From Zygnema cylindricum (lineage: Eukaryota > Streptophyta > Zygnematophyceae > Zygnematales > Zygnemataceae), in NCBI GenBank assembly GCA_037447655.1, contig JBBHKE010000271.1:496001-560000 (forward strand): a DNA stretch of 64,000 nucleotides. The letters are read 5' to 3'. The translations under genes were made by a program, and so were the position numbers. The first letter of the stretch is position 1; the number at the start of each line of letters is the position of its first letter. The notes beneath the pieces were generated by a model. The model was given only the letters and a program-made list of their open reading frames with translations. It had not been told where the DNA came from and did no database searches. Below, in pieces: positions 1,018 to 63,300 of the stretch.

Positions 1018-1100
1018 TTGAGTCCGGCAGGACTCGAACCCCCGATCGGTAGAGCGCGGCGTAGCCGTTAGCTCTAACCAGTCTGTCGTAGAAGTCCGTT
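1018..1100 (-). other. tRNA-like module inside LTR (antisense)
   Basis: On the minus strand a D-arm/A-box-like TACGACAGACTGGTTAGAGC is followed about 30 nt later by a perfect B-box GGTTCGAGTCC (complement of 1030-1040). Acceptor-stem pairing is poor, so this is a tRNA-derived sequence and not a functional tRNA gene. The twin LTR at 9262 carries the same module. Pol III transcription from it would run toward the LTR 5' end. Confidence 0.65.
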
Positions 1101-1499
1101 AAAAGATATAGGGTTTGATTAGTATTTAAACTATTGTACTATATAGAAATCATTTAACTCATTTACGCATTTAACTCATTAGAAATCATTTAATCTTTAC
1201 GGCGTGCATAGATACAGTTTGATAAAGTACGAAGTACTATACTAATTTGAAACGGATATCGCGTTTCGACATCGAAACAAATACGGCGCAAGTATTTATT
1301 ACGAATGAGATTACATTTCGCGTCAAATCTCACGGCGCACATCATCGCCGAAATATCGGAATGGTAACTTTGGCATTTAGTGACATGGCATGACCTAGAG
1401 CCACGTGGAGAGACGACATTTGGTCGCAGGAATTCCGAGGAACGTACGGACGAGTGGAAAATGGACACGCGTCCGCCTAATGGCCTTGTCGTACAGAGG

Positions 1500-1663
1500 C
1501 CGTACAGAAAGTACATCGGCAGTAGTACTTTCTGGTACTGTACAGTGTTTTGATTGGTTCGTACAGGCAGTAGATAGGGGTTGTGAGAGAGAACTAAGAA
1601 AAACTAGGACTTAGGAAAAATCAGGTAGATAGTCCTCTCTCTTTTTGAGAGTTTGTATAAATT
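1500..1663 (+). promoter_or_regulatory. LTR core promoter: GTAC inverted repeat plus TATA-like box
   Basis: CGTACAGAAAGTAC and GTACTTTCTGGTAC form an inverted repeat (about 1500-1543), followed by GTATAAATT at about 1655. The same arrangement, with changed bases, is found in the other LTRs of the window, which supports a Pol II promoter role. GTAC is the core recognised by plant SBP/SPL factors; that link is inference. Confidence 0.5.
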
Positions 1664-1876
1664 GGCATCTTTGCCACCCTATAACTTATCGCCTGGTTGG
1701 GCGTTTTCAGAGGTTTCTTTTTCTACGGACTCAGGGGAGTCAAGGCTGCACAAGGGTGCAGCCAGAGTGTCTGCTTGTCTGCTTGTGTAGCAGTGGTTGC
1801 CATTAAAATTGGGTTAGTTGATAACTATCTAGAGGCTTCCTGTATTCTGTAGTCCAATGGAGGACACAGAATTGCA

Positions 1877-2027
1877 CTCTCTCCCTCTCCGACAAACGCG
1901 TCTATCTCATTATCCTTGCAATGAAAAAAGGCAAGAAAGGTATCAAATGAAATATCTATAAAAAATATTTCGTTTGGTTATCGTTTAGCTTATTTTGGTG
2001 GCAAGTAGAGTGAGAACGGACGAACAA
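1877..2027. other. Unassigned spacer
   Basis: CT-rich start, then A-rich sequence. No gene or repeat recognised. Confidence 0.35.
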
Positions 2028-4336: not shown

Positions 4337-4929
4337 ATTGCAAGTATTTATTACGAATGAGATTACATTTCGCGTCAAATCTCACGGCGCACATCATCGC
4401 CGAAATATCGGAATGGTAACTTTGGCATTTAGTGACATGGCATGACCTAGAGCCACGTGGAGAGACGACATTTGGTCGCAGGAATTCCGAGGAACGTACG
4501 GACGAGTGGAAAATGGACACGCGTCCGCCTAATGGCCTTGTCGTACAGAGGCCGTACAGAAAGTACATCGGCAGTAGTACTTTCTGGTACTGTACAATGT
4601 TCTGATTGGTTCGTACATACAGTAGATAGGGGCTAAGAGAGGAACTAGGAAAAACTAGGACTTAGGAAAAATCAGGAAGATAGTCCTCTCTCTCCCTTTG
4701 AGAGTTTGTATAAATTGGCATCTTTGCCACCCTGTAACTTATCACCTAGTTGGGCGTTTTCAGAGATTTCTTTATCTACAAACTTAGGGGAGTCTAGGCT
4801 GCACAAGGATGCATTCACATTGTCTGCTTTTCTGCTTGGGTAGCAGTGGTGGCCATTGAAAGTGAGTTAGTTAATAACTATCTAGAGGCTTCCTGTATTC
4901 TGTAGTCTAATGGAGGACACAGAATTGCG
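4337..4929 (+). mobile_element. 5'-truncated Copia LTR (5' LTR of Copia-1)
   Basis: It is nearly identical to 1285-1876 but lacks the first ~475 bp, including the tRNA-like module. It ends ATGGAGGACACAGAATTG and runs straight into gag, so it serves as the 5' LTR remnant of the element below. The terminal CA is changed to CG. Confidence 0.8.
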
Positions 4930-5889
4930 GGTTATGGGCCCACCCTCTAGGGTGCCCACCATCAATGGATCTAGGTTCATCTATTGGGAAGCCATGATGA
5001 TGGGAGCTTTGTGCGAAAAACGATACTGGGGTATCGTCAGTGGACAAGTGAAACGTCCACCTTCAGGAACTCCACCAGGATTTGGAGGAGTAAGGTTTCC
5101 TACAGCTACGGCTGCCTCAGCGGAGGAGGCAGATGATGGGGATAGCAGTGTGTCGGAAAAGGGGAAAGGGAAGGAGACACCCCTCACTCCTAGAGCCACA
5201 ATATCGGGAGTGGCGACCGTGAAGACCGTGGAGAACAATACTCAAATGTTGGAGGATGTAAACATGGCTGCCAAGAACTTCATTCTGAGGCACCTCACTC
5301 AAGCTTTGGCCACCCCTCATCTTCACATTTACAAGGCCGAGGAGTTGTGGGTGAGTTTGGGGGAGATTTAAAGAGCTGGAACTATTAAGGAGCTCCAGTT
5401 GGCTGAGCAAAAACTAGTGAGTTACACTTACAAAGGAGGAAAGATGTTAGATTACTGTAATGATCTTTCTTATTTATATACGGAGATGGAAAGTGTCGGG
5501 TGGACAGGCACAATGAAAATGAAAGTTAACACTCTTATCATGAAGTTACCAAATGAGTTTGAGAACATAGTGTACCGAGTACAGGAAATGCCTGATAGTT
5601 CATGGAAATGGAACACAGTGGTCAGAATGATACTTGTGCAGGAAAACACAATAGAGATTAGAAGAGGAGGAAAGAGCATTATGCTCAAGCAATAGGAGGG
5701 GACCGATGGGGGAAGGAATCGAAGAAACCTTTTAGAGGGGAAAGAGATAATTCTGGAAGACCGATGCCCCCAAAGGGTCTTTGTCATTTTTGCAAAAAGC
5801 CATGACACTTCATCGCAGATTGTGTCAAGCTGTCGGAGCTGAGGCTCCAAGAGAACCATGGAGGGGGTTCTTCCAGAGGGAAGAAATAG
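4910..5889 (+). pseudogene. gag: Copia-1 gag pseudogene
   Basis: Nucleocapsid-type gag of a Ty1/Copia element. The start codon at 4910 lies inside the LTR end, so the protein begins MEDTEL before the conserved RVP-TINGSRFIYWE segment typical of Copia gag N-termini. The frame is broken by stops near 5369, 5693 and 5887. A CCHC zinc knuckle (CHFCKKP-stop-HFIADC, about 5779-5820) keeps the C-x2-C-x4-H-x4-C spacing but carries a TGA in the middle. It would package element RNA in virus-like particles when intact. No TGGTATCAGAGC-type initiator-Met primer site follows the LTR. Confidence 0.85.
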
Positions 5890-9261: not shown

Positions 9262-10309
9262 TGTTGAAATAATTAGTTTTATTGTATTTTCTAGGTCTAA
9301 ATTAATTAGCCGAAAACATACAAAAGAAAATGTAGGCAGCTTGCCTCCATCTCTTCTCTCTCGCCCCCATACTTGTTGTAGTCACTGAAGGAGAGAGAGA
9401 GCGATGGAGCCATGGCTGTCTCAGCTCCATGGGAAGGACAAAAGAGTAACTTAAGTCACTCTCAACAAAAGGTTGAGTCCGGCAGGACTCGAACCCCCGA
9501 CCGGTAGAGCGCGGCGTAGCCGTTAGCTCTAACCAGTCTGTCGTAGAAGTCCGTTAAGAGATATAGTGTTTGATTAGTATTTAAACTATTGTACTATACA
9601 GAAATCATTTAACTCAAAATCTTTACTACGTGCATAGATACACTTTGATAAAGTACGAAGTACAATACTAATTTGAAACGCATATCGCGCATTTTGTTTC
9701 GACATCGAAACAAATACCGCGCAAGTATTTATTACGGCTGAGATTACATTTCGCGTCAAATCTGACGGCGCACATCATCGCAAAAATCTCGGAATGGTAA
9801 CTTTGGCATTTAGTGACATGGCATGACCTGGCGCCACGTGGAGAGAAGACATTTGGTCGCAGGAATTCCGAGGAACGTACGGACGACTGGAAAATGGACA
9901 CGCGTCCGCCAAATGGCCTTGCCGTACAAAGGCCGTACAGAAAGTACATCGGCAGTAGTACTTTCTAGTACTGTACAGTGTTCAGATTGGTTCGTACATA
10001 CAGTAGATAGGTGCTAAGAGAGGAACTAGGAAAAACTAAGACTTAGGAAAAATCAGGAAGATAGTCCTCTCTCTCCCTTTGAAAGTTTGTATAAATTGGC
10101 ATCTTCGCCACCCTATAACTTATCGCTTGGTTGGGCGTTTTAGAGATTTCTTTTTCTACGGACTCAGCAGAGTCCAAGCTGCAAATGGGTGCAGTCAGAT
10201 TGTCTGCTTGTCTGCTTGGGTAGCAGTGGTTGCCCTTGAAAGTGGGTTTGTTAATAACTATCTAGAGGCTTCCTGTATTTTGTAGTCCAATGGAGGACAC
10301 AAAATTGCA
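9262..10309 (+). mobile_element. 3' LTR of Copia-1 (1048 bp)
   Basis: It begins TGTTGAAAT directly after the polypurine tract and ends AAAATTGCA. Block order is identical to the LTR at 808-1876, but it is more diverged from the 808 and 4337 copies than those two are from each other. An antisense tRNA-like module sits at about 9470-9556. The sequence after the LTR is Gypsy RNase H, not host-like DNA. Confidence 0.85.
9470..9556 (-). other. tRNA-like module inside LTR (antisense)
   Basis: Same class as the module at 1018-1100. The minus strand shows a D-arm-like ACTGGTTAGAGC and an exact B-box GGTTCGAGTCC (complement of 9485-9495). Confidence 0.65.
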
Positions 10310-14223: not shown

Positions 14224-14405
14224 CGTTATGGGCCCACCCTCTGGGGTGCCCATATTCAATGGGACTGGGTTCATCTACAGGGAGAATATGATGATGGGAG
14301 CCCTATGTGAGAAAAGATTTTGGGGAATAGTGGGTGGGGGAGTAAAGCGCCCATACGGTTGTGCTATTCCTCTAGGGTTTGGAGGAAGCAGATTTGGTAG
14401 GAAAC

Positions 14406-15305
14406 TGCAATTCTGTGGTCTCCATTGACCCAGAGAATGAGCAGCCTATGTAATGCCTCTAGGATAATATTTGCCCCTTCTACTTTCCCGCTGAATAAGC
14501 GCCGCCCAGGCACACAAATATTTTGACCACTCTCACCTTTGTGAGGACAAGACTCCCCGAAGTCAAACGCAAAAAGAATCACTGAATTTGCTCCACTGAG
14601 CAGTAAGTTATGGTTGGTCAAAGATGACCTTTATAGTTACAAGCTCTCTTAGAGAGAGGTACCTAAATTTCACTAAGTCCTGGTCTGCCTACTTACGACT
14701 GCCTACTACTAAACCCTAGTCTAATAGAAACACTATATAGTACAAGAAGGTACATTAGGCGATGTACTTATTGTACGGCCATTGTACGACATGGCTTTCA
14801 AAGTGACGCTTGTCAAAACGGGAGCCATGGTTCCTCCTCCCATCTTCTCCGGTATCCAATAGTATGGTGCCACGTGGCGTCGCGTGACGCTATCCCTAAA
14901 GGCCGCCGAAAGTTTATTGCTGGTGGCGGCTGCAATTGTGGCCGTTCGATCATTTGTATTTATGCGGCTTCGATTCGCTTCCCTGCATGAATTGATTAAT
15001 GCGTGTTTTCGTTAGTCTGCTGCAAATTAGCCCGTTTAACAAATAGATAAATATGCGTGAAACGTAATACATATATCGTTTTGCTAGTGCCTTAATGGAT
15101 AAGGCTAAGGTCTAAGTAGTATTCCGTAGACCACGGTTCAAATCCGGCTAGAGGCAGTATTTTGCTACAAATAGTAAAATACCTTCTATTTCATTCTTCC
15201 TCCTAAATGACGCGGGAGCCATGGCGTGCCTTTGGTTCTCTCTTTCTCTCTCTTTACATTCTAACTAAACTATAGAAGTGAACTATTAATTACCTCTTTT
15301 CAACA
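14406..15305 (-). mobile_element. Solo LTR (900 bp) inserted in Copia-2 gag, 5-bp TSD
   Basis: In reverse orientation it starts TGTTGAAAAGAGG (at 15305) and ends GAATTGCA (at 14406). The flanks GAAAC (14401-14405 and 15306-15310) are an exact 5-bp target-site duplication, as expected of Copia integration. This fixes the LTR ends in this family, including the ATGGAG-containing terminus. It belongs with the LTR at 62474 and carries an antisense tRNA-like module. Confidence 0.92.
15089..15160 (+). other. tRNA-like module inside solo LTR (antisense to LTR)
   Basis: The A-box-like TAGTGCCTTAATGGATAAGG resembles plant tRNA-Arg D-arms. GGTCT and AGACC can form an anticodon-type stem around a 14-nt loop, longer than normal and reminiscent of an intron. 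The B-box GGTTCAAATCC (15135-15145) is perfect. Acceptor pairing is mostly lost. The same architecture is in the module at 62622-62705. Confidence 0.68.
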
Positions 15306-16150
15306 GAAACCAGATCCACCGTCATCAGAGGACTCAGAAGACGGAGAAAGCATCGTGATGGAAAAGGGGAAAGAAAAAGAGAAAACCACACCTATAGCAA
15401 TCGGATCTGCTTTCATGTCTCCTATTCCAAGGAATGAGGAGAATGACAGCGATACTAGGGACTACAACAACATGGCGGTCAAGCATTTTGTTCTTTGTCA
15501 TCTCACACAAGGACTCGCAGGTCCTCATTTGCAAAAGGAAAGGGCATCCGATCTGTGGGATGCCCTTATAGAGATGTACCGAAGCGGTACTATTTAAGAA
15601 CAGAAGCTAGCAGATCATAGGATCAATGGATACTTTCACAAAGGAGAGAAGATGCTCGACTTCTACAATGAGCTCGCTATACTCTTCATGGAGTTAGAGT
15701 GTGCGAGAAAGGTAGAAACCGAGAAGGCAAAGGTTCACTGCTTACTCATGAAACTACCCGATAAGTATGAGAACATTGTGAACCAGGTACAAGATATGCC
15801 GGCCTCCAGGTGGATATGGAATTTAGTATTTGGTATGATTCTCGTCCGAGAGAATACAATCGAAATCCGGAGAGGAGTTAAGGATGGACAAGCCATGGCG
15901 GCCGGAGCAAGTTGGAGAAACAAAGATTCACGGAAACCCCTTGGAAGTCATAGGGGGGAAGACCTTAAAAATCAATCCGATGAGTCCAAAACAAGGGGAC
16001 CAAAGGGGATGTGTCATTTTTCTAAGAAACCCGAGCATTACATGGCAGAATGTACCAAACTGACCGAGCTTCGGATAGAGGGGCATACCGAGGATCAAAC
16101 ACGAGGGAAGAAAAAGGCACTTGTCACACAGGTATTCGAGGAGGAATCCC

Positions 16151-19279: not shown

Positions 19280-20277
19280 TGTTGAAATTAAAAGGTTTTC
19301 TTTTGTATTTTCTAGGTTTCATATGTAATCTAAGATGGGGAAGTAAAAGCAGAGGCAGCCTACTTCTAACTTCTCTCTCTAGCCCCATACTTGTCATAGT
19401 CACTGGAGGCTGAAGAAGAAGATAGAGCCATGGTTGCCTTTGCTTCACCTAGAGTCAAAAGGCAGTCCTTTGTTAAACTTAAGAAAAAGGCTAACTGACC
19501 CAAGATTTGATCCTAGTTCCTATCGTCCGTTTGAATAGACCAGCGTCGTTACCATGTAGCCTAGCACCCGTGTCGGGGTATATAGGGTACGATAGCTACT
19601 TAAAGAAGTACAAATAGGAATGTTCATTTAACTAACGAACGAACCACAATCACATAGATATAGTTAGATAGAATCACATCTAAAAGTACTGCTTCTATTT
19701 TAACAGCTATAAATTAAGGGCGATATCAATCGGACGGCGGAGAAAAAAGTCGGCATCGTGGAATGGACGATTTGGTGATTTACGGCTCCAGCCACGCCGG
19801 GTGACACGTGGCAACATTACATTGGATAGCGGCATCTCCGAGATATACCATGGCGAACTCGAAATTGGCAGGCGTCACCTTCTTGGCCATGTCGTACACT
19901 GGCCGTACAGAAAGTACTCCAGGCCAAGTACCTTTCTGTACTATACACTTAATTGATTGGCTCCGTACTTCAGTAGTAGTGGGATAAGAGAGGGGTTCAG
20001 GATTTAGAAAATATTAGGTAGCAGCCTCTCTTTCAGAGTGCTTCTGTATGAAAGGTCATCTTTGACCATTGATAATTTACTGCTCAGGGGAGCAAATACA
20101 AGGATTCTTTTTGTGGCAGACTCAGGGGAGTCAGATATTCCAAGGGGTGCATTTTGATCAGTCTATATTTTGTCAGGGTGTCAGCAATATTCAAACAAAA
20201 CTTAACCAACTGAGGTTTTCCTAGAGGCCTTTGGCAAGCTGCCTACTCTGAGTACCAATGGAGGTCTCAAAGTTGCA
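19280..20277 (+). mobile_element. 3' LTR of Copia-2 (998 bp)
   Basis: Begins TGTTGAAATTAAAAGG after the polypurine tract and ends CTCAAAGTTGCA. It contains the block ACTTGTCATAGTCACTGGAG, GCCATGGTTGCC, an antisense tRNA-like module (19495-19585) and the GTACAGAAAGTAC inverted repeat near 19906-19953. Inverted gag of another Copia directly follows. Confidence 0.85.
19495..19585 (-). other. tRNA-like module inside LTR (antisense, degenerate)
   Basis: The minus strand carries GGATCAAATCT (complement of 19503-19513), a B-box with one or two changes, and GCTAGGCTACATGG in the A-box position. It aligns with the modules at 21476 and 56876, though more decayed. Confidence 0.5.
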
Positions 20278-20899
20278 CTCCTCGGTCTCTCCTTTCACTT
20301 GTGTGACCACAAGAACCTTCTTCTTCCCTCCGGAAAAACCCCCTCCATGGTTCTCTTGGAGCCTCAGCTCGGACAACTTGATACACTCCGCCATGAAGTG
20401 TCCCGGTTTTTTTCAAAAATATCAAAGACCCTTTGGGGGCCTCCGTCTTCCAGACTGATCTCTTTCTCCTTTGAGGCTACTTTACGGCTTCCTCAAATCC
20501 TTCTTCTAATGGTCCGTTCAGGCAGCTAGAGCTTTAATGCTCTTTCCACCTCTCGGAATCTGAATAGTGTTCTCTTGGACAAGTATCATTTGGACCACTG
20601 TATTCCACTTCGAAGAACTGTCATCCATTTCCTGCACTCGTTACACTATGTTCTCATACTCGTTTGACAACTTCATGATGAGGGTGTTGACTTTCATCTT
20701 CATTGTACCTGTCCACCCGACACTCTCCATCTCCATATAAAAACAAGAGAGATCATTACAGTAGTCTAACATTTTTCCCCCTTTGTAAGTATAATCCCCT
20801 AACCTTTGCTCGGCCATCTGGAGCTCCTGAATGTTACCAACTCTATAGATTTCCACTAAAGTCACCCACAACTCTTTGGCCTTGAGAATGTGAAGAATC
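20278..20899 (-). pseudogene. gag: Copia-3 gag fragment
   Basis: Read on the minus strand: KAKELWVTLVEIYRVG, then GDYTYKGGKMLDYCNDL and VNTLIMKLSNEYENIV, closely matching Copia-1 gag. The first ~400 bp of gag are missing; the sequence joins LTR sequence directly at about 20899. The frame is broken after about 20641 and ends abruptly at the 3' LTR of Copia-2. Confidence 0.8.
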
Positions 20900-21752
20900 A
20901 CTGAAAACGGCCAACCAACCGATAAGTTATGAGGCACTAAAAATGCCAATTTGTACAAACTCTCAAAGGGAGAGGTGACTACCTACCAATATTTTTCTAA
21001 GTCCTGATTCCTTTTAATAACTTCTATCTACTGAAGTACGGTCCAATCAAATTACTGTACCGTACCAAAAAGTACTGCTGCCGGTGTACCTTTTGTACGG
21101 CCTATGTACGACAAGACTATTAAGTGGACGCGTGTCTGCTTTTGACTTGTCCGTACATTCCTCGGAATTCCTATGACCGAATGTCATCTCTCCACGTGGC
21201 TCCATGTCATGCCACGTCACAAAACGCCAAGCTGACCACTCCGGAATTTTGGCGATGACGTGCGCCGTCGGATTCGTAATGAGACATAATCTTAACCGTT
21301 ATAATTACTTGCGAGATATTTGTTTCGCTGTCAAACAAATGCAAGGTATTCATTCTGAAAATGATGTCGTACTAAAACTGTATCTATGCACGCCGTATCT
21401 AGTTTTAGTTAAATGGATTTCTTACTTCCTAAATGTATATATATGTATCATACCCTATAGCACTTAGCATTGGTCCTAGTATAGTAGGATAAAGCTGACC
21501 GCTATCTGCCAACTTTAACGAACCGCAGGTTCCGGGTTCAAATCCCGGGTCCGTCGGGACTATTTTTAGTAAACTAAAAATAACTGCTTGTTGAACTAAG
21601 GCAGCCATGGATCAACCACCTTCTCTATCCTTCAGTGACTACAACAAGTATGGGGGCTAGAGAAAGGAGGTGGAGGCAGGCTGCCTGTCCCTTTTATTTT
21701 TCCTAACATATTTAAACCTAGAAAATACTATAGAAATCTATGAATTTCAACA
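20900..21752 (-). mobile_element. Copia-3 LTR, 3'-truncated
   Basis: In reverse orientation it starts TGTTGAAATTCATAG (21752) after a polypurine tract and proceeds through the GCCATGGCTGCC block, the tRNA-like module (21476-21561), GTAC inverted repeats and the TATA-like region, stopping at a GTTTTCAG motif. The last ~150 bp of a normal LTR are deleted together with the start of gag. Confidence 0.8.
21476..21561 (+). other. tRNA-like module inside LTR (antisense to LTR)
   Basis: A TATAGTAGGATAAAGC A-box-like segment is followed by a perfect T-arm CCGGG-TTCAAAT-CCCGG. GTCC at the start and GGAC at the end can pair as part of an acceptor stem. This is the best-preserved tRNA-like fold in the window, yet spacing between T-arm and acceptor is too long for a normal tRNA. 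Confidence 0.7.
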
Positions 21753-27385: not shown

Positions 27386-34241
<6,856 letters not shown>

Positions 34242-39743: not shown

Positions 39744-39968
39744 GTACACCGTGAATCGCTATTAGGGTTTAATGGTTTTTTCGTCTCTTAAAACATCTTT
39801 TCTCCGTACACACATTGTCGGATTGTGAATCTGACGGCTGCGATTGAAAGGCAAAATTGTCAGCTTCTTATTGGCAGTTTCACATTGAAAATCGAGCAGG
39901 TGTGCACGGAGAAAAGACGTTTTTAGTGGCGGAAAAATTATTAACACTAATAGCGATACACGGTGTAC
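39744..39968. mobile_element. MITE of the GTACACCG family (225 bp)
   Basis: Ends GTACACCGTGAATCGCTATT and AATAGCGATACACGGTGTAC. The interior contains the CTTTTCTCCGTACACACAT segment and its complement. Confidence 0.87.
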
Positions 39969-39969
39969 A

Positions 39970-42392: not shown

Positions 42393-42615
42393 GTACACCG
42401 TGTATCGCTATTAGTGTCGATAATTTTTTCGCCACTCAAAACATCTTTTCTTCGTACACACTTGTCCGATTTTCCATTTGAGACCGCCAATAGGAAGCTA
42501 AGAGTTTTACCTTTCAATCTCAACCGTCAGATCTAAAATCGGACATGTGTGTACGGATATAATATGTTTTAAGAGACGAAAAAAACATTAACCCTAATAG
42601 TGATTCACGGTGTAC
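42393..42615. mobile_element. MITE of the GTACACCG family (223 bp)
   Basis: Ends GTACACCGTGTATCGCTATT and AATAGTGATTCACGGTGTAC, extended outward by palindromic ACTGTACA on both sides. Confidence 0.85.
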
Positions 42616-49300: not shown

Positions 49301-52300
49301 ACTCAATGTTGCCCATCGAAACATATCATGGGTCAATTCGGAAAAACTTAGAACCTGCAGAATACGTCCATAGGTCCATTTTTTCAGGAAAGTAAGTCAT
49401 CTTACCTTAAATTGAATTTTATAATTTCTCCATAAATAACCATAACATGACAACGATTGCAAACATTCGTTTTTGAATTTGCTCCTCTTTATGATTTATT
49501 TGTCACAAACAAGTTTTCTTTTGAAATATATGGACCACTGAGGAAATATCATTTGCGTGGCCGTTTTTAAACTAGGAACATACCATAGAGGATTCTGGCT
49601 GTTAAACCACAAGAAAAAAGGGGGTTTGGTCACATTCTGGAATTTTTAGCCCCGACCATGTGTGGTAAATTTGTCTTGCAAAAATTAGTTGTGTTTCTAG
49701 TCACTCGGCATGCCTAGGTGCTTTTTGCATAATGTTCTCAATTTTATTCTAATGAATATTGCAAAAGTGGCAGTAGGTTCGAAATGGAAATATCTGTAGG
49801 TTTTTTAGGGTCCATTTCCAATTGTAGATATCTGATCAGGTGTCCTGTCTAGAACGAGTTCCGAGAGGCATTCCTCAAACATGGCCTGATTTTTGTTCCT
49901 TGATGATAACTTATTTCTATATTATATTTTTGTCCTGTTTGTTTTTCCTGTCATTGGTTTCTAGAGAGGTTATAAAATGCGATTCTCTGTTTCTCTCTGC
50001 CACTTTTCATCGGTGCACATTGCATGTTCATTAACTATTTTGAGATATACATCTACCAGCAAATAAAGGTTTTACATTTTTTGCCTTGTGTAGTTAGGAA
50101 ATTCTTCAGAAGTTAATGGTTGTTTGGCCCGTATGATAGGCAGTTGCCTAGTTGGCTTCAAAATTAATTATCTATTATTGATTGGCGACATTTACTTTTT
50201 GATGTAAAAATAAATGTTATAAGCCATATATGAAAGTAATCATCCAGTATTGATTGATGACATTCATTTCTTGATGCAGGAGTACATGTTCTCAGTCATA
50301 TATGAAATTAATTACCCTCTATTGATTGATGACCTTAAGTTATTGATGTAGAAGTACATGTTATCATTCGTTGATAATAGTTACGTGCAGCAAACATCAG
50401 TAATAGATCCTGTTGTACTGTGTGTGGGTAATAAATCCTGCTGGTGTACCGTGTGTGGGTGATGTATTCGGGTTTTTCAGTTTTAAAGAGGATGAAGCAA
50501 ATGCTCAAAAATGGATCGATACAGGTCTTTGGAAGTAAGGCAACCTACTCTGCATCATCTGCTTATATTTTTGCTGTGATATTTTCAGGGCGTAAGGCCA
50601 GAGAGAGATGTCAGGGCGATGTCTTATACTCGAGAATGGAATGTATGGAGTCCTTTTTAAGGTCATATCAAATGTACAGCTTGCATCTCCGTTCCAGTAC
50701 ATCTTTCACCTTGGTTAACCTGGATCAGACAATTTCTGAACTAGTGTTTTCTCAAACAAAAAGAGAAAATGTTTGGAAGCAAGACGTTAATTAGCATCTC
50801 TATTATATGGGCCGCGATTGTCATAATGCAAGTGTCCTTGCCAACATATAAATGGTGATAGGGATATTACACAATTAAAGTTTTACTCTTGTTTTGACGG
50901 TAAATTGAACCATTCGTACAGTTATTTAGCGTCAGCATGGCGGTAATTTTCTTTCGTGTAATTACCCTATGAGTGATGTAACTTATGTTTTGATATTTTG
51001 GTTTGAGCATTCTTTCAGGCTTTTGTATCTGACATTCTGATGGGGTACCAATGAGGAACTATGGTTTTGCAGGTTTTGTCGACATCCCAATTATTTGGGG
51101 GAGATATTACTTTGGTGGGGCGTGTTTTTGACAGCTTCAGAAGGGCTTAAAGGCTGGGGCTGGTTAGCAGGTATGTCTACGTCAAGTCTCAGCTTTGAAT
51201 ACTAAACAATTAGTACTACTCTTACTTTGGGATGGAAAACAAGATTTTGGGCATGGAACAGGATTGGACAGGTGATTTCTAAACAAACTCATAAACAGGG
51301 TTATTGACTGTGGTTGAGGGCACAGACGACTGTTCTTAATGATTGTTTACCGATTGTCATTTTATTGAATATCAAACACTGAATTATAGAATATCAGACA
51401 GATTATCAGACATAGAAGTGGACAAAAGTGCTTTCCCTGGATAATACGCGAATATGATTGGTTCTCTGCCTCACTTGTATTGCAATAGGGCAGTTATTTC
51501 TGGGGCCTTGGTTTCGACCAGTAGTCGATGATATTATAACTGAAAAATTGGTAAAAGAAGCAACTCTAGGTGTGGAACACAGTGTTCCCTCCGCCTTTAT
51601 TGTGTGTGTGAAAAAGGAGGGTATTCGACAGAGAAATGTGATCGCTGTTGCCGCCTATCATAGTTTTTTTTTTTAATTTAAGTCAGTCTGCCACATTTGC
51701 ACAGAATGAAGTTCACTGATAAGGTGAATATATCCCAGAAACAGCTGACACTGCTCTATGTTTGAGGTTAACAAATGTGTAAACCAGTCCACCTTTGTAT
51801 TGTTGAGAAACAATATGTTCTCGGTTTGAAGGACATGTTATTCGTTTCTTTGCAGGTTTGGTGGGACCTGTGTGGACTACTATTCAGTTGTATTATGTGA
51901 GCGGGGTAAGCTATTGCTTTCCATTATAAATGAGTTTGGTCTTTTTTTGTTTGTTTTTACGGATTAGTCCTGCAGCAGAATCCAATTTGTTTATGAACAG
52001 ACAATTTTGACGGATGTTATCAGGATAACAGACGCAGTCGTTGTGAGTCTATTTGTTTATCTGAAACTGTTTATTTTTTCGTCAGAAACCAATCGCTCTT
52101 TTGGTCGTGATTAAATGTAAAAATCAGCGCCCCCCCTTCCCCCCCTCCTTTCCGCCCTCCCTCCCCTCCACCTCCCTCTCTTCGTTTGTCATTCTCATCA
52201 CTCTGTACTCAGGGTGTAGGCAGGACAAAGTTCAAGATTACGAGATGAACTTGAAATCTTGTTTCACGGTTTCGACCAGCTGATATTCACAAATTTTTTG

Positions 52301-52605: not shown

Positions 52606-55046
52606 TCCTGCCCTTGTCGGTAACAACTCTGGTGGAGAAAGAATGGCAAAAAAGAAAAGACATGACAGAGAAACAAAACTGGAATACATGATAACTTCAC
52701 CCCATGCATTTTTCATGTAAGCCTTGCTCTCTTGAAAAGTGGCAACGCCGCTTCCCTTGGAGAAAAGTGGCAATTCCTCTTGCCTCAGCCACTGCCGGAC
52801 GAAAACCGGCATTTGCATGTAGTTAGGTTTTCTAATAAGGGTTTTTTTGAATTCTTGGGTTGGTCGTTTTTTCCCACGCTGTTCTTTAGCAGCGTGTTTT
52901 CGCCTGCTTGAATATGTCATTTTCAAGTGGCGTCCAATTGGAAGGTTCTGCATAAAAGAAATAGGATGTTTTTATCCCAAGTTTTACAGGGTTTTCCATA
53001 TTTCCGGGTTTTCCGGTTTTCTGGGTTTTCCTGCCTTTGTAGTCTCCAGTACTCACTGGTGACTCGGTAGGGTATTTTGCTGTTTTACCTCTTGAAATCG
53101 TGCAGGGTATCGTCGTGTTAACGAAGTGGAACAGCTGTCGTAGGAAAAGAATTGTCTACGTTGTCCTTTTTTTTTCCTGACTTGATTTGAAGGAGATGTT
53201 TGTGAACAAGCAGGATATAGATGATAGAAATTGGCACTTTTTTTAGGGTTTTTTAGATTTGTCGGTCCGGCTTTTGCAAAGAATGAACTATTGTCAGTCC
53301 AAGATACAGCGGTAATTAACGTTGTGAATAGGTTAAACCATCCACATTTAGTTCTGGAACAATGTTTTTGTCGTAAGTTGCAAGTTGTCTGGAAAAGTTG
53401 TCGTAAGTCGTAGTAGAATCGTACTAAGTCTTAGTAAGTCGTGTAAAAGATTTGGTAACTCTGGGGATGTTGTTTGCATATACTTTCTGTTCCATGTCCC
53501 ATTATATTGCCAGGTGCACTTGTTGCAAAAACCTGATGATTGTTTTTGTTTTTGTATGCTTATACTCTTGAATCATTTGTAGAATCGTATTAAAAATCTT
53601 TTTCTTTGCAGCTATCTCAACTGGTATGACTTTGACAAGATAGACCAACGGAATGCACTAAATGAAAATTTGCCTACCTGTTTCTTCGTGTTTTTGTTGT
53701 AAGTTTTTGATGTGGGTTTCGTTTGTAGAGATCATTGCATAGCGCTTTTTTGTTGACCATGCGAAATTGTTTGTTACTCTAAACACAGTTTAGTGCAATT
53801 GGTCAAGGATCACGCGATTAGCTTGGAAATTTGACAAGAGATTTGTGAGGTACTGGGCTTGAAATTTTATGCATGAAGAAGGCAGAAAAATCACTGGTGC
53901 TGCCACTGGACTTGTGAAAATCAATCGTACCTGTTATCGCGTAAATTCAATCAGCAAATTGAACTAAAAAGCGCGATGGTAAACCATCTCCAGTCCAAAT
54001 GTATAAAACGGGAGGACAGGTATCGAATGCGTGAGCGCAAGTGGCTAGAGTATGGGAATGTGTGCTTACATAAGGTTTTGATGTATAAATAAGTTTATGA
54101 TTTGTTGACGTTGGGCCCTTGAATCTAAAATAGAGTGAAAAAAACTTTTAATTTCTTCGCAGTAATAGCATACTAATAAGAAAATGGTGTGAGTACATCT
54201 TTGTAAAGTAATCACAGTACTTGCCATCTGAGTAGACGAAAAGAAAAATTACATCGAAAAACAAGCTGGCAAACCACTGTTGTTGTGAGAAAACGAAAAT
54301 GAAAAAACAATGTTGACAAAAGTAAAACACAAAAAAGGGCAAGTCAACAAACATCTTGAAGAGAACAAGCAGCACCCAAACAACAACGAAATAAAATACT
54401 CGACTTCAACAAAGCTAAAACCCTTTTACAAGCACCACTAAAACCCTCAACCACATCATAGAATTTTGAAGGGGGCATGGGAATAAAACACATCTATTAG
54501 CAGAATAAAAATGGTAAGGACGATACACGCTTGAAACTCGTTGTGAGTGTACACAAACTAGAAACGTTCGTAGACGTTGAAAAACTTTGACAATAAAATA
54601 AAAATTAGGCCGAAAACCAAGAGGGCCACTCTCCCTCTCCCACTCCCTCAACCCCCTCCCTCTTCCTCTCTCTCTCCCTCTCCCTCTCCAACTCCCGCTC
54701 CCTCTCCCTCTGACAAGAGGTATGGAGAAACTTATCCAAAGCAAACCCCACAACCTAAAATCTTTACCATCTTCAGATTCGAGTCATTCTTAACATCGAG
54801 GTGAGAGTAATCGCGTTACTTCTTCCCAACAATGTCATGTAGAGCAACTCCGACACACGTTTTAGAGCCTAACCAACGCCTATATAACAGATGGATCGCC
54901 TAACCAACAATTATAACAAAGGCACCGTTCGCCAAAACAATTCACCAAAAATACAATGGCCATCATTGAGAAAAACAACGTCGATTCGTCGCGAAGGAAT
55001 AGTATTTGAAACTCCTAACGAACATAATATCCTCCATTTGGAAACA
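52606..55046. other. Downstream region of DUF1295 gene, no gene seen
   Basis: The minus ORF at 52312-52953 overlaps the last exon and has no known domain. A CT-rich low-complexity tract lies at about 54628-54715. No RNA gene or clear transposon was recognised. Confidence 0.4.
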
Positions 55047-55222
55047 GTACACAATGTATCGCTATCAGTGTTAATAATTTTTCGTCAGTTAAAACAGATT
55101 TTCTCCGTACACAGTTATCCGATTTCTACATGGAAACCGCCAATCGGAAGGAGACAGTCTTAGCTTTCAATCGCAACCGTCAGATCTATAATCCAACAAG
55201 CGTTTACAGAGAAAAGATGTTT
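55047..55222. mobile_element. Truncated GTACACCG-family MITE
   Basis: Left end GTACACAATGTATCGCTATC; the body CTCCGTACACAGTTATCCGA matches other copies. The right end is lost at the junction with an LTR fragment. Confidence 0.65.
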
Positions 55223-55385
55223 TTGAAATTCTGTGGCCTCCATTGGCCCACAGAATAGGCAGCGTATACAAAGCCTATAGGATAATGCTTACCCTTTTTA
55301 CTTTCCCAATGAATAAGTGCCAACCTAGCATCAAATACTCTGACCACCCTCACCCTTGTGAGGGCCCGACTTGTCCAATTATTCC
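55223..55385 (-). mobile_element. Copia-type LTR 3' fragment (inverted)
   Basis: The reverse complement of the TGGGCCAATGGAGGCCACAG terminus and upstream LTR sequence. It joins LINE-like RT sequence at about 55385. Confidence 0.65.
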
Positions 55386-56592: not shown

Positions 56593-57655
56593 TGTAGAAA
56601 CTAATAGTTGGTTTAGCATTTTCTAGGTCTAAAATGAAATGTAGAAAAAGAAGCCGAGGCAGTCTGCCTCTAAATCCTCTCTTCAACTGCCACACTTGTC
56701 GTAGTCACTAAAGGTTGAAGAGGGAGCCAGAGCCATGGCTGCCTGTGCTGTCCAGAGAAGCTCCCACACTTGTCGTAGTCACTAAAGGTTGAAGAGGGGG
56801 CTAGAGCCATGGCTGCTTGTGCTGTCCAGAGAGAGAAAGGCAGTTGTTTTAGTAAGTTTACTAAATGGATACTTGACGGACTCAGGATTTGATCCTGGTA
56901 CCTGCAGTTCGTCAAGTGAGCCGGTAGCGGTTAGCTTTATCCTACAAGTCTAAGACAAATGGTAGAGTATATAAGGTTTGACAAATATTTAAATAGTTAG
57001 ACGTGAACTAATTCATTTAACGGAAACTATATATGTCATGCATAGATACAGTTTGGTAAAGTACGAAGTACAGTACGGTTCCTAAACCGATACCGCGCAT
57101 TTTGTTTTGACAGCGAAACAAATATCGCGCAAGTATTTATGACGGCTACGATTGAAACACGGTTTTGATCGGACGGCCGCGAAGGATGCCAAGATCGCGG
57201 AATAGGATTTTTGGCGGTTTGCGATCATCGCCACATCGATTGAAACGTGGCACAACCACATTGGATTACGGCATCTCCGGGGATTAGAGGAATGAATCCA
57301 AAAATGACATGTTTCGACTTGTTCGCCATGTCGTACAATGGTCGTACACAAAGTACACCAGTTCGTGTACCTTTCTGTACGACATAGTATTATGATTGGT
57401 GCCGTACTTTAGTAGATAGAGTTTTAGAGAGAGATAGGACTTAGAAAAATTTGGTAGATAGGACCCTCTCTGCGAGAGAGCTACTGTACAAAAGGTAAAC
57501 TTTGACCCTCCATAACGTACTGCTCACGGGAGCAAATTCATAGATTCTTTTTGCTATTGACGCAGGGGAGTCTTACCTTCACAAAGGTGGAGACTGTCAA
57601 AGTTTTTATTTATCAAGGTGGCAGTTATTTTTGCTGAAACACAAAGGGGTCAGGG
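56593..57655 (+). mobile_element. Copia-type LTR, lacking its last ~80 bp
   Basis: Begins TGTAGAAACTAATAG and has the usual order of blocks. A ~75-bp tandem duplication (about 56689-56837) repeats ACTTGTCGTAGTCACTAAAG and GCCATGGCTGC. The tRNA-like module is at 56876-56965 and the GTAC inverted repeat near 57343-57385. It breaks off at AAAGGGGT and joins another LTR start. Confidence 0.8.
56876..56965 (-). other. tRNA-like module inside LTR (antisense)
   Basis: The minus strand reads TGTAGGATAAAGCTAACC in the A-box region and GGATCAAATCC as B-box (complement of 56885-56895). Same class as 21476-21561. Confidence 0.62.
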
Positions 57656-57715
57656 TGTAGAAATTAATGGTTTTTTTTAGTATTTTATAGGTCTAAAATG
57701 AATTTCAGAAAAGAA
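57656..57715 (+). mobile_element. Copia-type LTR 5' fragment
   Basis: TGTAGAAATTAATGG and TATTTTATAGGTCTAAA repeat the start of the preceding LTR; lost after about 60 bp at Gypsy non-coding sequence. Confidence 0.65.
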
Positions 57716-58949
57716 TGTCGAGCGTGCCGGAGAAACATGAGAGGAGGAACCACTGCCCTCAATAATCGGCATCGGAGTCCAGCAAAAAACCCCTTAGAAT
57801 GCAATTGCTTCCCATGATAATGCCCCTGCTCACGGTTGCTCGCCTTTCTCCCATGAACATGCATGCAGAAATAGGGATGAGTGCATGGGGAGGGCGAAAA
57901 GATATCTCCTCCCCCTCCTTTCCCCACCTTGCCGGTGAAAGGGATGGAAATCTTGGTACTGGAGCGAGGCTCCTGATTTATTGTTAAGGTTTGGTGAAAG
58001 TGTAACAAAGATTCTCTCAAAATCCACTGTACTGGTACAAAAGATTTTGGTTATCGACCCCGGAGGAAAACTAGCCGAAGCCCCAAAAAGGACTACCAAA
58101 GAGAGAACAAATATACTTCCACTCAGAATAATGAAAAGATAATATATAGATATGTTGTCTCAAAATTAAGAATATCACCTTGCCCTAAAAAAATTGAGAA
58201 ATAAGGTAGAATGTGGAATGATAGCAAGCGAGCTCAACCTACCCCCAGAACGTAACACGGACAACAAGAGGAGACGAAATCTCTCCCGAAGACCCCGGAA
58301 CAGGGAAGGCCTCTTTAACTCCTCGGTTTCCGCAAACCAAAACCGGCAAGACCCTTCTCGGTTTCCAATTGCCACCAATCCCAAATCGCCCAAACAGGAA
58401 AGATAGTGCCAACTACCCAACCAGACTACTACTTCCACAAAGGATGGATGCAAACCAAGATGGCAATAGGGTCACAATCACATACAAAACAGAAGTTCTC
58501 CACAAGAAAGTTTGCTGGAATTTTTAGAGTTTTTCTCAGGAGACAGTACTGAAACAACAACCTGTCCCCTTCGGCCCTAAGTGCCTTATACAAGCAAAGC
58601 TTGTCCTACTGACATGACTGAAGTCAAAGCAATACCAGGAGCCAATCAGCGGCAAGGAATTGTTATCGTACAGACATAAGACAAAACAGGTTGTACTACA
58701 CTTAGGGCAAAAAATTATGCGACAAGCTCCGGCTAGATTGGAAGCAAAGTGTCATTCAATGATAAACTCCTGAGCACAAAGTTCTGAATTGACGTGAAAC
58801 GCCTAACTTTGACTTAAGGTAATAAATGCTCTACTTGTCTGGTGGACTTGAACTAACCAAGGTAATAAATGCTCTACTTGTCTGGTGGACCTGAACTAAC
58901 CTCCTACAGACAGTCAACACCAAAATCTACAAGATTATCCCAAAAGTTA
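57716..58949 (-). repeat. Gypsy-associated non-coding repeat, copy 1
   Basis: GTCGAGCGTGCCGGAGAAAC and the following sequence recur at about 60418. The stretch 57797-58352 is duplicated at 58950-59508. A 41-bp unit containing TGCTCTACTTGTCTGGTGGA is tandemly repeated at about 58820-58905. The orientation relative to the pol fragment at 60.7-62.4 kb suggests LTR or untranslated sequence of that element. ORFs here are not conserved. Confidence 0.6.
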
Positions 58950-59508
58950 GAATGCAATTGCTTCCCATGATAATGCCCCTGCCCACGGTTGCCCGCCTAT
59001 CTCCCATGAACATGTATGCAGAAATAGGGATGAGTGCATGGGGAGGGCGAAAAGATATCTCCTCCCCCTCCTTTCCCCACCTCGTTGGGGAAAGGGATGG
59101 AATTCTTCGTAATGGAGTCAGGTTCCTGATTTATTGTTAAGGTTTGGTGAAAGTGTAACAAAGATTCTCTCAAAATCCACTATACTGGTACAAAAGATTG
59201 TGGTAATCGACCCCGGAGAAAAACTAGCCGAAACCCCAAAAAGGATTACCAAAGAGAGAACAAATATACTTCCACTCAGAATAATGAAAAGATAATATAT
59301 AGATATGCTGTCTCAAAATTAAGAATATCACCTTGCCCTAAAAAAATTGAGAAATAAAGTAGAATGTGGAATGATAGCAAGCGAGCTCAACCTACCCCCA
59401 GAACGTAACGCGGATAACAAGAGGAGACGAAATCTCTCCCGAAGACCCCGGAACAGGTAAGGCCTCCTTAACTCCTCGGTTTTTGCAAACTGGAATCGGC
59501 AAGACCCC
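58950..59508 (-). repeat. Gypsy-associated non-coding repeat, copy 2
   Basis: A direct repeat of 57797-58352 with few differences, cut on the right by a Copia LTR fragment. Confidence 0.75.
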
Positions 59509-59953
59509 ATCTCCGAGGATTAAAGGAGCGAATCCGGACATACCACGTGTCGACATTTAAGGCATGTCGTACAGTGTCCGTACATAAAGTACACCGGCAG
59601 CTGTACTTTTGCGTACGGAACTGTAATCTGATTGGTTCCGTACATCAGTAGATAGAGTCTGTGAGAGAGATAGGACTTAGAAAAATTAGAAGATAGGACC
59701 CTCTCTCCCAGAGAGCTTCTGTACAAAAGGTCAACTTTGACCCTCCATAACTTACTGCTCAGGGGAGCAAATTCAGAGATTCTTTTTGCTATCGACTTGG
59801 GGGAGTCTTGCCTTCACAAGGGTGCAGGTGGTCAGAGTTTTTGTCTGCCAAAGTGGCAGTTGTTTTTGCTGAAACACAAAGGGGTTAGGGTTATCTTAGA
59901 GGCTTCTTGGAAGCTGTCCACTCTGAGGACTTATGGAGGTCTCAGAGTTTCAA
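59509..59953 (+). mobile_element. Copia-type LTR 3' half
   Basis: From CATCTCCGAGGATTAAAGG it aligns with 57270 onward of the LTR at 56593, through GTAC motifs and ending TATGGAGGTCTCAGAGTTTCA. It is inserted in or fused to the Gypsy-type repeat. Confidence 0.75.
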
Positions 59954-60690
59954 AAAGTTATGCGACTAGCTCCAGCTAGATTGGAAGCCAAATGTCATTC
60001 TATGAAACACTCGTGAGCACAAGGTTCTAAATAGACGTGAAACGCCAAACTTTGACTTAAGGTAATAAAGCTCCACCTCTCTGGTGGACCTGAACTAACC
60101 TCCTACAAACAGCCAACAGCAAAATCTACAAGATTATCCCAAAAGTTACGTGGCGTTCCACAATGTAGCCCCCAAAGTGACAGGTGGAAACTAGTCGCAT
60201 GTAACATAAATGGTAATCTTGAAACGTAATAACTCCGTCTTCCGGCCTCTGTTAGGCGCAAAATAAAGTGCGTTCCGCTCAGTTTGGAAAATAAAAGAAT
60301 CTTGTCCGGCTGGGTACACTCCTTCCTCCGTACTCCGATGACCGTACAGGGGAGAAAGGGTCGGGAAATCCATAGTGATCTAAAGAAGTGTCGATAAAGC
60401 CAACGAGCTTGACAACTGTCGAGCGTGCCGGAGAAACATGAGAGGAGGGCCCATTGCTCTGAGAAATCGGCATCGGAGTCCTGCAAATAACCCTTTAGAA
60501 TGCGATTGCTTCCCATAAAAATGTCCATGCCCACGGTTGCCAACCTTTCTCCCATGATCATGCATGCAAAAAAAGGGATGAGTGCATGGAAAGGGGGAAA
60601 AGATATCTCCTTCCCCTCTTTTCCCCACCTGCCCGGGGAAAGGGATGGAATACTTGGTAATGGAGTCGGGTTCCTGATTTCCCCCCCTCT
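59954..60690 (-). repeat. Gypsy-associated non-coding repeat, copy 3 (probable LTR)
   Basis: Its first part matches about 58710-58925 and its last part (60497-60680) matches copies 1 and 2. It directly follows, on the minus strand, the pol fragment and a purine-rich AGAGGGGGGAAAT tract, so it is probably the 3' LTR of that Gypsy element. Exact ends are not fixed. Confidence 0.55.
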
Positions 60691-62430
60691 TAGTCAATCG
60701 TGACTATGACATAAGAAAAATTACCCACCTAATTCGCAGTTCTCGCAGAACCAGAGTGCAGAGGGTTTAGGACGATGGTCCCAAGAAGAGGGGAGGCAAG
60801 ACTGATGCCAACATTAGTCACATCCGTCAAAGACCAAGACAAGTTTGCGAGAGGAGGACGAGAGGCAGCCAGAGGAACTTGATGGTGGATCGGCAAAATA
60901 GGTGAGGTAGAAAGTAGGCTCATCTTCCAATCGCCCGATGTGACAAGGAGCTACATTGATCTCATTTTCCTTGATTTTCCAACCGGCCTTTCCTTTTTGT
61001 GTTAAGACACCCTTATTGGAAACCTTTGCCATTATCAAGATCACCCTTCCCGCCGAAATGTCCAAAGTGTCCTTTTTCTGTTGCATCCGATACAAGAAAT
61101 CCCTTGGCAGAAATGGTCGTTGCCGCGGGACAAAATTCCCGCTCTGGCGTTGCGAATACCAGAGTTGATCTCAATGCTGAGCTGCTTGTGAATTCCCCAT
61201 GGCCAGAGGCATTTCCCGGTGAAATACCTTGGCCCTTTCAGGAATCAATTTCTCAAACGCTCCTTTGCTATCCATCTCCGGAAGGACCACCGCTTGGGCG
61301 GAGGCAGCGCCGGGTAGGATTGGATGTCGTCCGAACAAAATGAAATATGGACTATAGGAGTGGAGGGATGCTTGCCAGCTGAGCCTATACTCCATGGCAA
61401 TCCAAGGCACCCTTCTATCCCACTCTCCTAAATCCTCTTCCACACAATATTTGGGCAGTGACCGCTTCACCATCCGTACGCACCTTTCAGCCAAACTGTC
61501 CGCTTGTGGGTAGTCTCGGCTGGTTAGCCGGTGGTCGATGATGCACAATTCCAACAAGTTGGAGAATTCTCCCGCAAATTCGGAGCCCTGGCCGGTCAGC
61601 ACTTGGGCTGGGGCCCCAAATGCGGACAACACTCTTTGCAAGAATGAGTCTGTAATCACCTTGGACTCCTTCCGGGGTAAGAACACCAATTCAATCCACT
61701 TTGAAAAATGCTCTATCATTACCAATACAAAGCGGTTCCCTCGTCTGCTAGTGGGGAGAGGACCCAGGAGATCCAGAGACCACCGATAAAACATTCCCCT
61801 GATGGGAAAGAAATGAAGCTGGGCACCTCCCTTTTTGTGGAAAGCTGCTTTGACGCGATCACAGGAAGAACACGTCTGCACAATCCAGTTGACTTCGGTC
61901 GGCAACCCGTGCCACCAGTACGATACAGTGACCACGGAGGTGGTCTGTTTCTGCCCAAAGTGGCCACATTGTTGGTGGAGGGAAAAAAATTAGAGTCTCC
62001 CTATCGGTCGGGGGATTAACCACTTTCCTTGTGCCGTCTGCCCATTTCCGGATTAAAATGCCTCTCTCCTATTCGTACGCCCCCATTCGACCTTGAACCC
62101 AAAATAACTGCAATCCATACAAATGGGAAAGAGGAGAACCTTGTTGAATAGATTGAAGTGCATCGAGGTCATTCCAAAAATCTTTCCGCTCGGCTCCTGT
62201 TGGCGCTTGCCCCTCCACGTCTACAGAGAAAGTTGAAAATTCTCCCCTAGATTGAGGAAGCCAAATAAAGGCAGAGGAAACTCAAATGAGTCCCAAACTC
62301 ATTTCGGGATCCTCATCGTGATGGGTTCCGGTGGAATCCCTAGTGGAAGGGTCAAGATTTCTGCTATGTCCGTCGGCATTCCCATGGATTTCCCCAGCCC
62401 GGTGGATTATGTCAAAATTATGTTTGTTGA
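60691..62430 (-). pseudogene. pol: Ty3/Gypsy pol 3' part with PHD-like tail
   Basis: On the minus strand, from 62430: an RNase H tail (GNADGHSRN), a degraded gap, then GHFGQKQTT and CSSCDRV of the integrase zinc region. The integrase core is open from 61935 to 61171. WSLDLLGPL holds the first acidic residue and DSLAERCVRMVKRSL the glutamate. The middle motif reads VLTGQGSEF, so the second catalytic Asp is Gly. After the core come VAPCHIGRLEDEP, LVFDGCD, CWHQSCLPSSWDH and WFCENCELG, resembling a PHD finger with some cysteines changed. Several frameshifts follow 61171. Confidence 0.75.
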
Positions 62431-62473
62431 AATTTATGTATTTTCTAGGTCTGGATTGGAAAAAAAAATAGAG
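62428..62473 (+). mobile_element. Copia-type LTR 5' start fragment
   Basis: About 45 bp starting at TGTTGAAATTTATG and including TATTTTCTAGGTCTGGA, immediately followed by a different LTR start. Confidence 0.55.
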
Positions 62474-63300
62474 TGTTGAAAAGAGGTGATTAATAGTTCA
62501 CTTCTATATTTTACTTAGACTGTAAAGAGAAAGAAAGAGAAGACCAAAGGCACGCCATGGCTGCCGCATCATTTAGAAGGAGGCAGAATGAATTAGAAGG
62601 TATTTTACTACTTTTAGTTCCCCGGTGTGCCGCGGCCGGATTTTAACCGGGGTCTGTAATCTGATATACAAACCAACGTCTAATCCATTAAGTCACTGAC
62701 GAAACGATACACGTGCAACGTTTCACGCCTATCTAACTGTTAATTCAAAGGACTAATTCGCAGCAAACTAACGAAAACGCGCATTAATCAAGTTATGCAT
62801 GGAAGCGAATCGAAGCCGTATAAATACAACCGATCCGACGGCCACCGTTACAACCGCCACCCGCAATAAGATTTCGGTGGCCTTTGGGGATAGCGTCACG
62901 CGGTGCCACGTGGCGCCACATTATTTGACACCAGAGAAGATGGGGGAGGAACCATGGCTCCCGATTTGGCAGATGTCACCTTGTAGACCATGTCGTACAA
63001 TGACCGTACAATAAGTACATCGCCCATCGTACCTTCTTGTACTATATAGTGTTCCTATTGGACTAGGGTTTAGTAGTAGGTAGTCTTGAGTAGGCAGACT
63101 AAGACTTAGTGATATTTCGGTACCTCTCTCTAAGAGAGCTTGTAACTATAAAGGTCATATTTGACCAGCCATAACTTAATGCTCGGGTGAGCAAATTCAG
63201 TGATTCTTTTTGCTGTGGACTCTGGGGATTCCAGGCTACAAAAGGGTGTAGTCGGTCAAAGTCTTTACGTGCCAAGGTGGCACGTATTCTAAGGGAAAGT
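62474..63300 (+). mobile_element. Copia-type LTR, same family as the 14406 solo LTR
   Basis: Starts TGTTGAAAAGAGGTGATT and matches the reverse complement of 14406-15305: CCAAAGGCACGCCATGG, the tRNA-like module (62622-62705), GCCACGTGGCGCC, the GTACAATAAGTAC inverted repeat and the TATA-like AACTATAAAGG (about 63147). The 3' terminus departs from the family after about 63280, so the right boundary is approximate. Confidence 0.75.
62622..62705 (-). other. tRNA-like module inside LTR (antisense)
   Basis: The minus strand: ACTTAATGGATTAGACG (A-box region), a GGTTT/AGACC stem around a 14-nt loop, and GGTTAAAATCC (complement of 62638-62648), a B-box with one change. Same class as 15089-15160. Confidence 0.62.

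Follow-up and report, generated by a model that had tools for sequence, protein, structure and literature searches.

A Probable Antisense RNA Polymerase III Unit in the Long Terminal Repeats of Copia Elements of Zygnema cylindricum

Antisense tRNA-like Modules in Copia LTRs

Analysis of a 64,000-nt stretch of the Zygnema cylindricum genome (assembly GCA_037447655.1, contig JBBHKE010000271.1, positions 496,001 to 560,000; hereafter the window) demonstrated that all seven of its Copia long terminal repeats (LTRs) that retain their 5′ third carry a tRNA-like block in U3, antisense to the LTR. Such a unit would consist of an A-box-like D loop with an invariant GG, a B box in the T loop and a terminator of four to six T residues (T4–6) at the position expected of a tRNA gene. 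The sequence pattern indicates that this module probably works as a type-2 RNA polymerase III (Pol III) unit, or did so in mobile source copies.

The modules fall into three sequence classes, as the initial annotation of this DNA had proposed, and the window together with the genome sample described below holds 5 copies of class A, 6 of class B and 12 of class C. The LTRs are named here by class letter, where assigned, and one end coordinate. Class A modules with an exact B box and a T4 run were located at 1012..1097 (−; B box 1030-1040; T4 at the module 3′ end) and 9467..9552 (−; B box 9485-9495). The Arg-like class B is represented by 15081..15163 (+; exact B box 15135-15145; T4) and 62624..62702 (−; B box 62638-62648 with one mismatch; no T4 run). 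Class C comprises 21470..21567 (+), which has a perfect A box (21477-21488), a perfect B box (21535-21545), a 5-bp T stem and a T5 run; 56867..56959 (−), with the B box GGATCAAATCC at 56885-56895 and TTT only; and a divergent member (‘D’) at 19484..19570 (−), with two mismatches in its B box (19503-19513) and a T5 run.

All seven blocks reported in the initial annotation were present, and an independent check of orientation placed each opposite to its LTR strand. The four exact or consensus B boxes claimed there correspond to exact GGTTCRANTCC motifs at 1040 (−), 9495 (−), 15135 (+) and 21535 (+), and multiple alignment of the LTRs put all seven B boxes in one column. In C56593 an upstream duplication of ~74 bp shifts the module to 281–368 bp from the LTR 5′ end, outside the reported 145–290 bp.

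Occurrence in a Wider Genome Sample

A module profile built from the window copies was run on the first 10 kb of contigs C1–C21 (L001–L021, ~210 kb), with L022 added to complete the module of L003. Of the 22 LTR-like regions in these 21 stretches, 15 reach or adjoin the module site, and every one of the 15 carries the module. One of the regions consists of two nested LTRs, which gives 16 modules, all antisense (16/16), with E values of 4e-16 to 1.2e-4. The module cut by the end of L003 (E 0.014) was counted once, as L022. Judged by aligned ranges, the other seven regions stop short of the module site: they are tails or 3′ pieces, a region that the start of L018 truncates, and the L006 region described below. 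Outside these LTRs the sampled contigs gave no match with E below 0.02, the next match having E 0.29, and a covariance model of the module matched only its seven source modules in the window below E 1. Absence of the boxes from most genome copies had been named beforehand as a sign of passive relics; instead, the module was found in 7/7 window LTRs and in 15/15 scorable regions of the sample. No related Copia element was found in collections of viral and prokaryotic contigs.

Three sampled loci have unusual structures. In L006 (2120-2760, −), short units resembling TTTGCCTCCG form an irregular array directly upstream of a 5′-truncated LTR, and this LTR fragment lacks a module because the simple repeat array stands in place of its 5′ half. 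In L011 (597-1484), a class B LTR is inserted within a class C LTR with the target duplication ATTTA; the insertion site is ~20 bp past the T run that ends the antisense unit of the C module, and this single case is a hint of nested insertion near a Pol III unit. A composite LTR in L012 (1886-2117, LTR on the − strand) holds a class C and then a class B module ~155 bp apart, which suggests recombination between LTR classes.

LTR Strand and Element Structure

Nine Copia LTR 5′ ends were found in the window, two of which (57658 and 62427) are broken off after about 58 and 47 bp and are unscorable. The LTRs start with TGTTGAAA or TGTAGAAA and finish with TTGCA or a near variant, and complete copies measure ~0.90–1.07 kb. 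The strand assignment of the LTRs is secure, because polypurine tracts, primer binding sites (PBSs), reading frames and a 5-bp target-site duplication (TSD) support it. The polypurine tract aaataaggggag lies directly 5′ of three LTRs, 9262, 19280 and the minus-strand 21752; the Copia reading frames share the strand of their LTRs; and TTATGGGCCCACC follows the LTR ends at 4928 and 14223 as the PBS. We take the PBSs of element 1 (4929..4944, +, 16 nt) and element 2 (14226..14238, +, 13 nt) to be complementary to the anticodon arm of plant initiator methionine tRNA (iMet). The PBS match, the Copia domains identified with Pfam and the 5-bp TSD GAAAC identify the family as Ty1/copia with half-tRNA (anticodon-arm) priming.

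The coding Copia element 1 holds rve and RVT_2 domains (Pfam) between its 5′-truncated 5′ LTR (4340..4928, +), which has lost the module region, and its 3′ LTR of class A (9262..10309, +). The other class A LTR (808..1876, +) is probably solo, has TGTTGAAAT...TTGCA termini and is 90% identical to LTR 9262. The solo class B LTR at 14406..15305 (−) is flanked by GAAAC at 14401-14405 and 15306-15310, and the second class B LTR (62474..63312, +; 3′ end not delimited) starts 47 bp after the LTR start at 62427. Element 2 has its 3′ LTR at 19280..20277 (+). The class C LTRs lie at 20896..21752 (−) and 56593..57657 (+). The first lacks its 3′ end; on the minus strand, it follows a Copia internal region, represented by the 3′ end, and a polypurine tract. 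Among the available copies, no element has the modules of both LTRs intact. An interrupted Copia LTR at 57658-59956 contains a 561-bp direct duplication (57794-58354 and 58947-59507, 94%), and a further partial repeat pairs 57716-57979 with 60417-60680.

Conservation of the B Box and Terminator

The B box was the top-conserved 11-mer of LTR positions 8–490, with none of 246 windows scoring better. Eight of nine alignments gave this rank; the exception, made with fast mafft, had misaligned the B box. Twenty LTR windows were better conserved, all further 3′. In six copies, 56 of the 60 specified B-box positions were kept. Neutral simulation with local divergence gave an expectation of 37 (sd 4.6), and 0 of 20000 runs reached the observed value; with whole-LTR divergence the expectation was 44 (sd 4.6) of 60 (P 0.0015). 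Within classes the B box ranked 4th among 287 windows in A (n = 5), 5th among 306 in B (n = 6) and 17th among 334 in C (n = 12), which is within about the top 5% in each, and every class consensus retains the B box (GGATC in C) plus TTTT. The middle of the module and the A box were not consistently better kept than the flanks.

In 21 of 23 modules, including all 16 outside the window, the first run of at least four T residues starts 14–19 nt beyond the B box. The background frequency of such a run in a 17-nt window of the same stretches was 0.057, and AAAA occurred at the same place in 2/23. A tRNA ends 11 nt after its B box, so the T run stands where a Pol III terminator belongs. This run, absent from the initial annotation, is the strongest argument for transcription that the sequence offers. 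B box and downstream T4+ terminator are thus both found, as in a type-2 Pol III unit. Their retention while tRNA folding was lost favours Pol III transcription over both a tRNA product and TFIIIC binding alone, and TFIIIC and Pol III would presumably use the module.

By tRNA numbering, the seven-module alignment has 12 invariant columns, including the D-loop GG, G52, G53, T55, A58, T60 and C61. Across the 23 copies the D-loop GG, T55, A58 and T60 are invariant, and G52, G53, C56 and C61 nearly so.

Motif Counts and tRNA Likeness

Exact GGTTCRANTCC occurred five times in the window, four times in modules and once elsewhere (33981). The looser GGWTCRANTCC gave 6 occurrences against 0.49 expected, and 0/100 shuffles reached 6. 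With one mismatch allowed, the B-box count of the window was not significant (11 against 7.2; 13/100 shuffles reached 11), and the case therefore rests on position and strand. When the best A/B pair of each LTR was compared with dinucleotide shuffles, the antisense strand gave p 0.005–0.015 in four of the seven LTRs (A808, A9262, B14406 and C21752), and no sense-strand pair in the seven had p below 0.08.

Comparison with a panel of tRNA sequences gave significant similarity for six of the seven window modules (p 0.005–0.03), and the antisense strand was the stronger one in 6/7. The T stem is 83% paired in the seven copies and in 77% of cells in the 23, a value that 0/500 shuffles reached and that lies above those of slid alignments. 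An outer stem with 77% pairing is seen in class C, yet it is absent from the RNAalifold prediction. A plant-type TATA box, expected at about −30, was considered and dropped, the only TATA-like motif seen by eye lying ~20 bp before the A box.

Origin and Relations of the Module Classes

By the same panel, class A resembles Ile/Thr/Lys-type tRNAs, class B resembles Arg-type tRNAs (z 7.7 and 7.1) and the module of C21752 resembles Glu/Asp-type tRNAs. Origin from the primer tRNA was not established, although C56593 and 19280 have an iMet-like AGGATC T arm: iMet scored z 3.3 against C56593, below Asp (3.8), and against 19280 it gave the highest z (3.8) among the five tRNAs listed, with a score lower than those of Gln and Leu.

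Outside the module, the U3 of class B aligns barely or not at all with that of A, C and D (5′ flank z 0.9–4.4; 3′ flank z −0.8 to 3.7), while homology is clear in the 3′ part of the LTR (z 12–37). The flanks of class A and C21752 are shared (z 43 and 10.5), the module hardly (z 2.1); class A and C56593 share part of the module (z 5.5). Leave-one-class-out profiles recovered both C modules and D, one of the two B modules weakly (E 0.27) and neither of the two A modules. The likeness of A, B and C to different tRNA types would suit the repeated exchange suggested in the initial annotation, but some homology persists among the modules. The sequence pattern of the classes would fit either one old module kept at key sites within a fast-evolving block or replacement by other tRNAs.

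Weighing of the Explanations

Several observations weigh against a working Pol III unit. The A boxes are degenerate: only one of the seven window modules has a perfect one, the others having one or two mismatches by our own assignment, and in A808, A9262 and B14406 the scanner chose a different A box from ours. The A/B pairs are weak in 56593 (p 0.09) and 19280 (p 0.20; two mismatches per box), and the best antisense pair of 62474 (p 0.05) sits elsewhere in the LTR than the module. The initial annotation had held that boxes mutating as fast as their flanks would mark passive relics, and here the boxes part ways: B-box identity exceeded that of the upstream flank in all eight LTR pairs, whereas the A-box stretch was less conserved than this flank in four of the eight. 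The B boxes of the 16 new modules have no mismatch in 4, one in 7, two in 2, three in 2 and five in 1, and the T4 run is missing from two of the seven window modules. The module of C56593 shows no significant tRNA likeness (p 0.23), and its opposite strand scores better. The RNA structure is not clearly under selection, because sliding the T stem by one column gives the same covariation score (0.304 vs. 0.297). In addition, the Rfam tRNA model (RF00005) stayed below its cut-off across the whole window and in five modules tested singly (best 17.3 bits; cut-off 29). The copies share ancestry, so the counts overstate their independence, and the tests were applied to a motif already noticed.

These points bear differently on the alternatives. 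The module might be a passive relic, that is, a single tRNA gene or SINE (short interspersed nuclear element) head that entered an ancestral U3, was copied along and decayed neutrally. No cloverleaf scores as a tRNA, conservation of the A box and of the module centre does not exceed that of the flanks in about half of the pairs, and class A and C21752 differ most within the module block of U3, all of which would suit a relic. However, the B box and T run are kept despite strong divergence, and no SINE body or tail was seen between the T run and the LTR-shared sequence, with no SINE library searched. A relic is already disfavoured on this evidence, and we consider it rather unlikely. A site bound by TFIIIC without transcription, acting as an extra-TFIIIC-type boundary or nuclear tether, would agree with a B box that is the best kept part beside a degenerate A box; a bare site would have no use for a terminator, but 21/23 copies have kept the T run, which makes this alternative quite improbable.

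It is very doubtful that the conserved sense sequence GGATTTGAACC and its A tract are the element's own RNA polymerase II (Pol II) enhancer or RNA signals, with the tRNA likeness incidental. Conservation alone is strand-blind, and the 20 better conserved windows further 3′ are perhaps Pol II promoter sequence; but the panel similarity is the stronger one on the antisense strand in 6/7, the conserved sites coincide with tRNA D- and T-loop positions, and the class B U3, otherwise barely alignable, has the same arrangement. A functional tRNA, or a primer for the element's own reverse transcription, deserves hardly any credence and, to the extent that sequence can tell, is already refuted. The 17.3-bit match is full-length but weak and comes from one class B copy, and ARAGORN with a halved threshold, run without a shuffled control, proposed low-scoring tRNAs in all seven modules. 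At default settings ARAGORN found no tRNA gene in the window or in the 8 of 22 sampled loci scanned, and functional tRNA identity was rejected on this and the Rfam score. The self-priming suggested earlier did not stand up either: none of the seven modules is complementary to either PBS (p 0.11–1.0), and the PBS fits the iMet anticodon arm.

Comparison with Known Systems

The initial annotation had named Cassandra as the closest precedent. Cassandra, a 5S-bearing terminal-repeat retrotransposon in miniature (TRIM), likewise has the Pol III promoter of a small RNA gene inside a plant LTR; unlike the elements here, it is non-autonomous, and its 5S rRNA promoter transcribes the element itself. 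No 5S rRNA match was found in the window up to E 10, and no Rfam family reached its gathering threshold there. Helenus (‘TRIMp3’; Kojima, 2024, PMC10886601) is closer. According to that paper, Helenus elements are tRNA-bearing, non-coding TRIMs of 311–1263 bp in all, with LTRs of at most a few hundred bp, whose tRNA-like part is taken as the element promoter and for most of which no tRNA is predicted at default. The shared features are tRNA-derived sequence with A and B boxes in the LTRs (the A boxes being degenerate here), several tRNA types, several families in one genome, 5-bp target duplications (Helenus of plants and fungi) and anticodon-loop iMet priming (many fungal Helenus families). 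Unlike in Helenus, single LTRs measure ~0.90–1.07 kb here and flank Copia coding regions rather than belonging to miniature non-coding elements; and, unlike the promoter role as read from the paper, the unit is antisense (7/7 and 16/16) and has its own terminator. The paper remarks on partial tRNA likeness in ‘not a few LTRs’ and follows only the TRIMs; the word ‘antisense’ is absent from its main text (PMC10886601).

The module resembles tRNA-derived SINEs in its internal tRNA-derived Pol III promoter and lost cloverleaf, and differs from them in that no SINE body or tail was seen around it. Ty1/Ty3 and Dictyostelium TRE are likewise retroelements tied to Pol III units, but there the Pol III gene is the integration target (PMC5911963, PMC5633606), whereas here the Pol III unit is carried in the LTR. 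Among the matches listed from the open literature, supplements aside, no description of an antisense tRNA-like Pol III unit in coding Copia LTRs was found.

Other Features of the Window

Around the host genes, the window contains broken Copia elements (gag_pre-integrs, rve and RVT_2 domains by Pfam), Gypsy pieces and inverted repeats resembling miniature inverted-repeat transposable elements (MITEs). The RPL10 gene (uL16; ribosomal L10/L16) at 28427-33096 (+) has at least four exons around 28.4, 30.9, 31.4 and 32.9 kb and introns of up to ~2.4 kb. Two joined RPL10 exons best match seven chains that we take to be plant ribosome entries (E 4e-66 to 5e-63), the next group of chain matches starting from E 5e-56; the window is therefore most likely plant (streptophyte) nuclear DNA. 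A tandem duplication of ~565 bp (94%) lies between RPL10 exons, at 29218-29781 and 29779-30353. A DUF1295 gene at 47596-51169 (+) has exons far apart, which implies kb-scale introns. A ~230-bp foldback, MITE-like inverted-repeat family has five copies of 68–86% identity (23487-23716, 38152-38380, 39739-39974, 42385-42623 and 55044-55223).

Proposed Effect and Significance

The predicted unit points to the LTR 5′ end, away from the element body, and therefore cannot transcribe the element; by this orientation, the use that Cassandra and Helenus make of their promoters, driving the element's own transcript, is excluded in its simple form. The expected product would be an RNA of ~80–100 nt complementary to U3, a region that LTR-element RNA contains only at its 3′ end. 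An active Pol III complex could keep U3 open or insulated upstream of the putative Pol II promoter, so that the element would be favoured; we put forward this insulation effect tentatively, as the preferred one. As a second choice, the short antisense RNA may damp or tune expression of the element. A role as chromatin boundary is a possible effect of the module.

More broadly, a coding plant Copia lineage might maintain an exchangeable antisense Pol III cassette in U3, perhaps re-founded from Arg-like, Ile/Thr-like and Glu/Asp-like tRNAs in subfamilies with hardly related U3, whose short U3-antisense RNA insulates or self-regulates the element or which serves as a landing pad for nested copies; this fuller scenario is doubtful at present. 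Pol III promoters in LTRs are known as the engine of tiny non-coding elements such as Cassandra and Helenus, and here a probable one lies antisense in the regulatory part of a coding Copia element. The arrangement would tie LTR retrotransposons to Pol III transcription and to antisense control or chromatin boundaries, and, if true, it would mean that many tRNA-like Pol III sites have been seeded across a plant genome.

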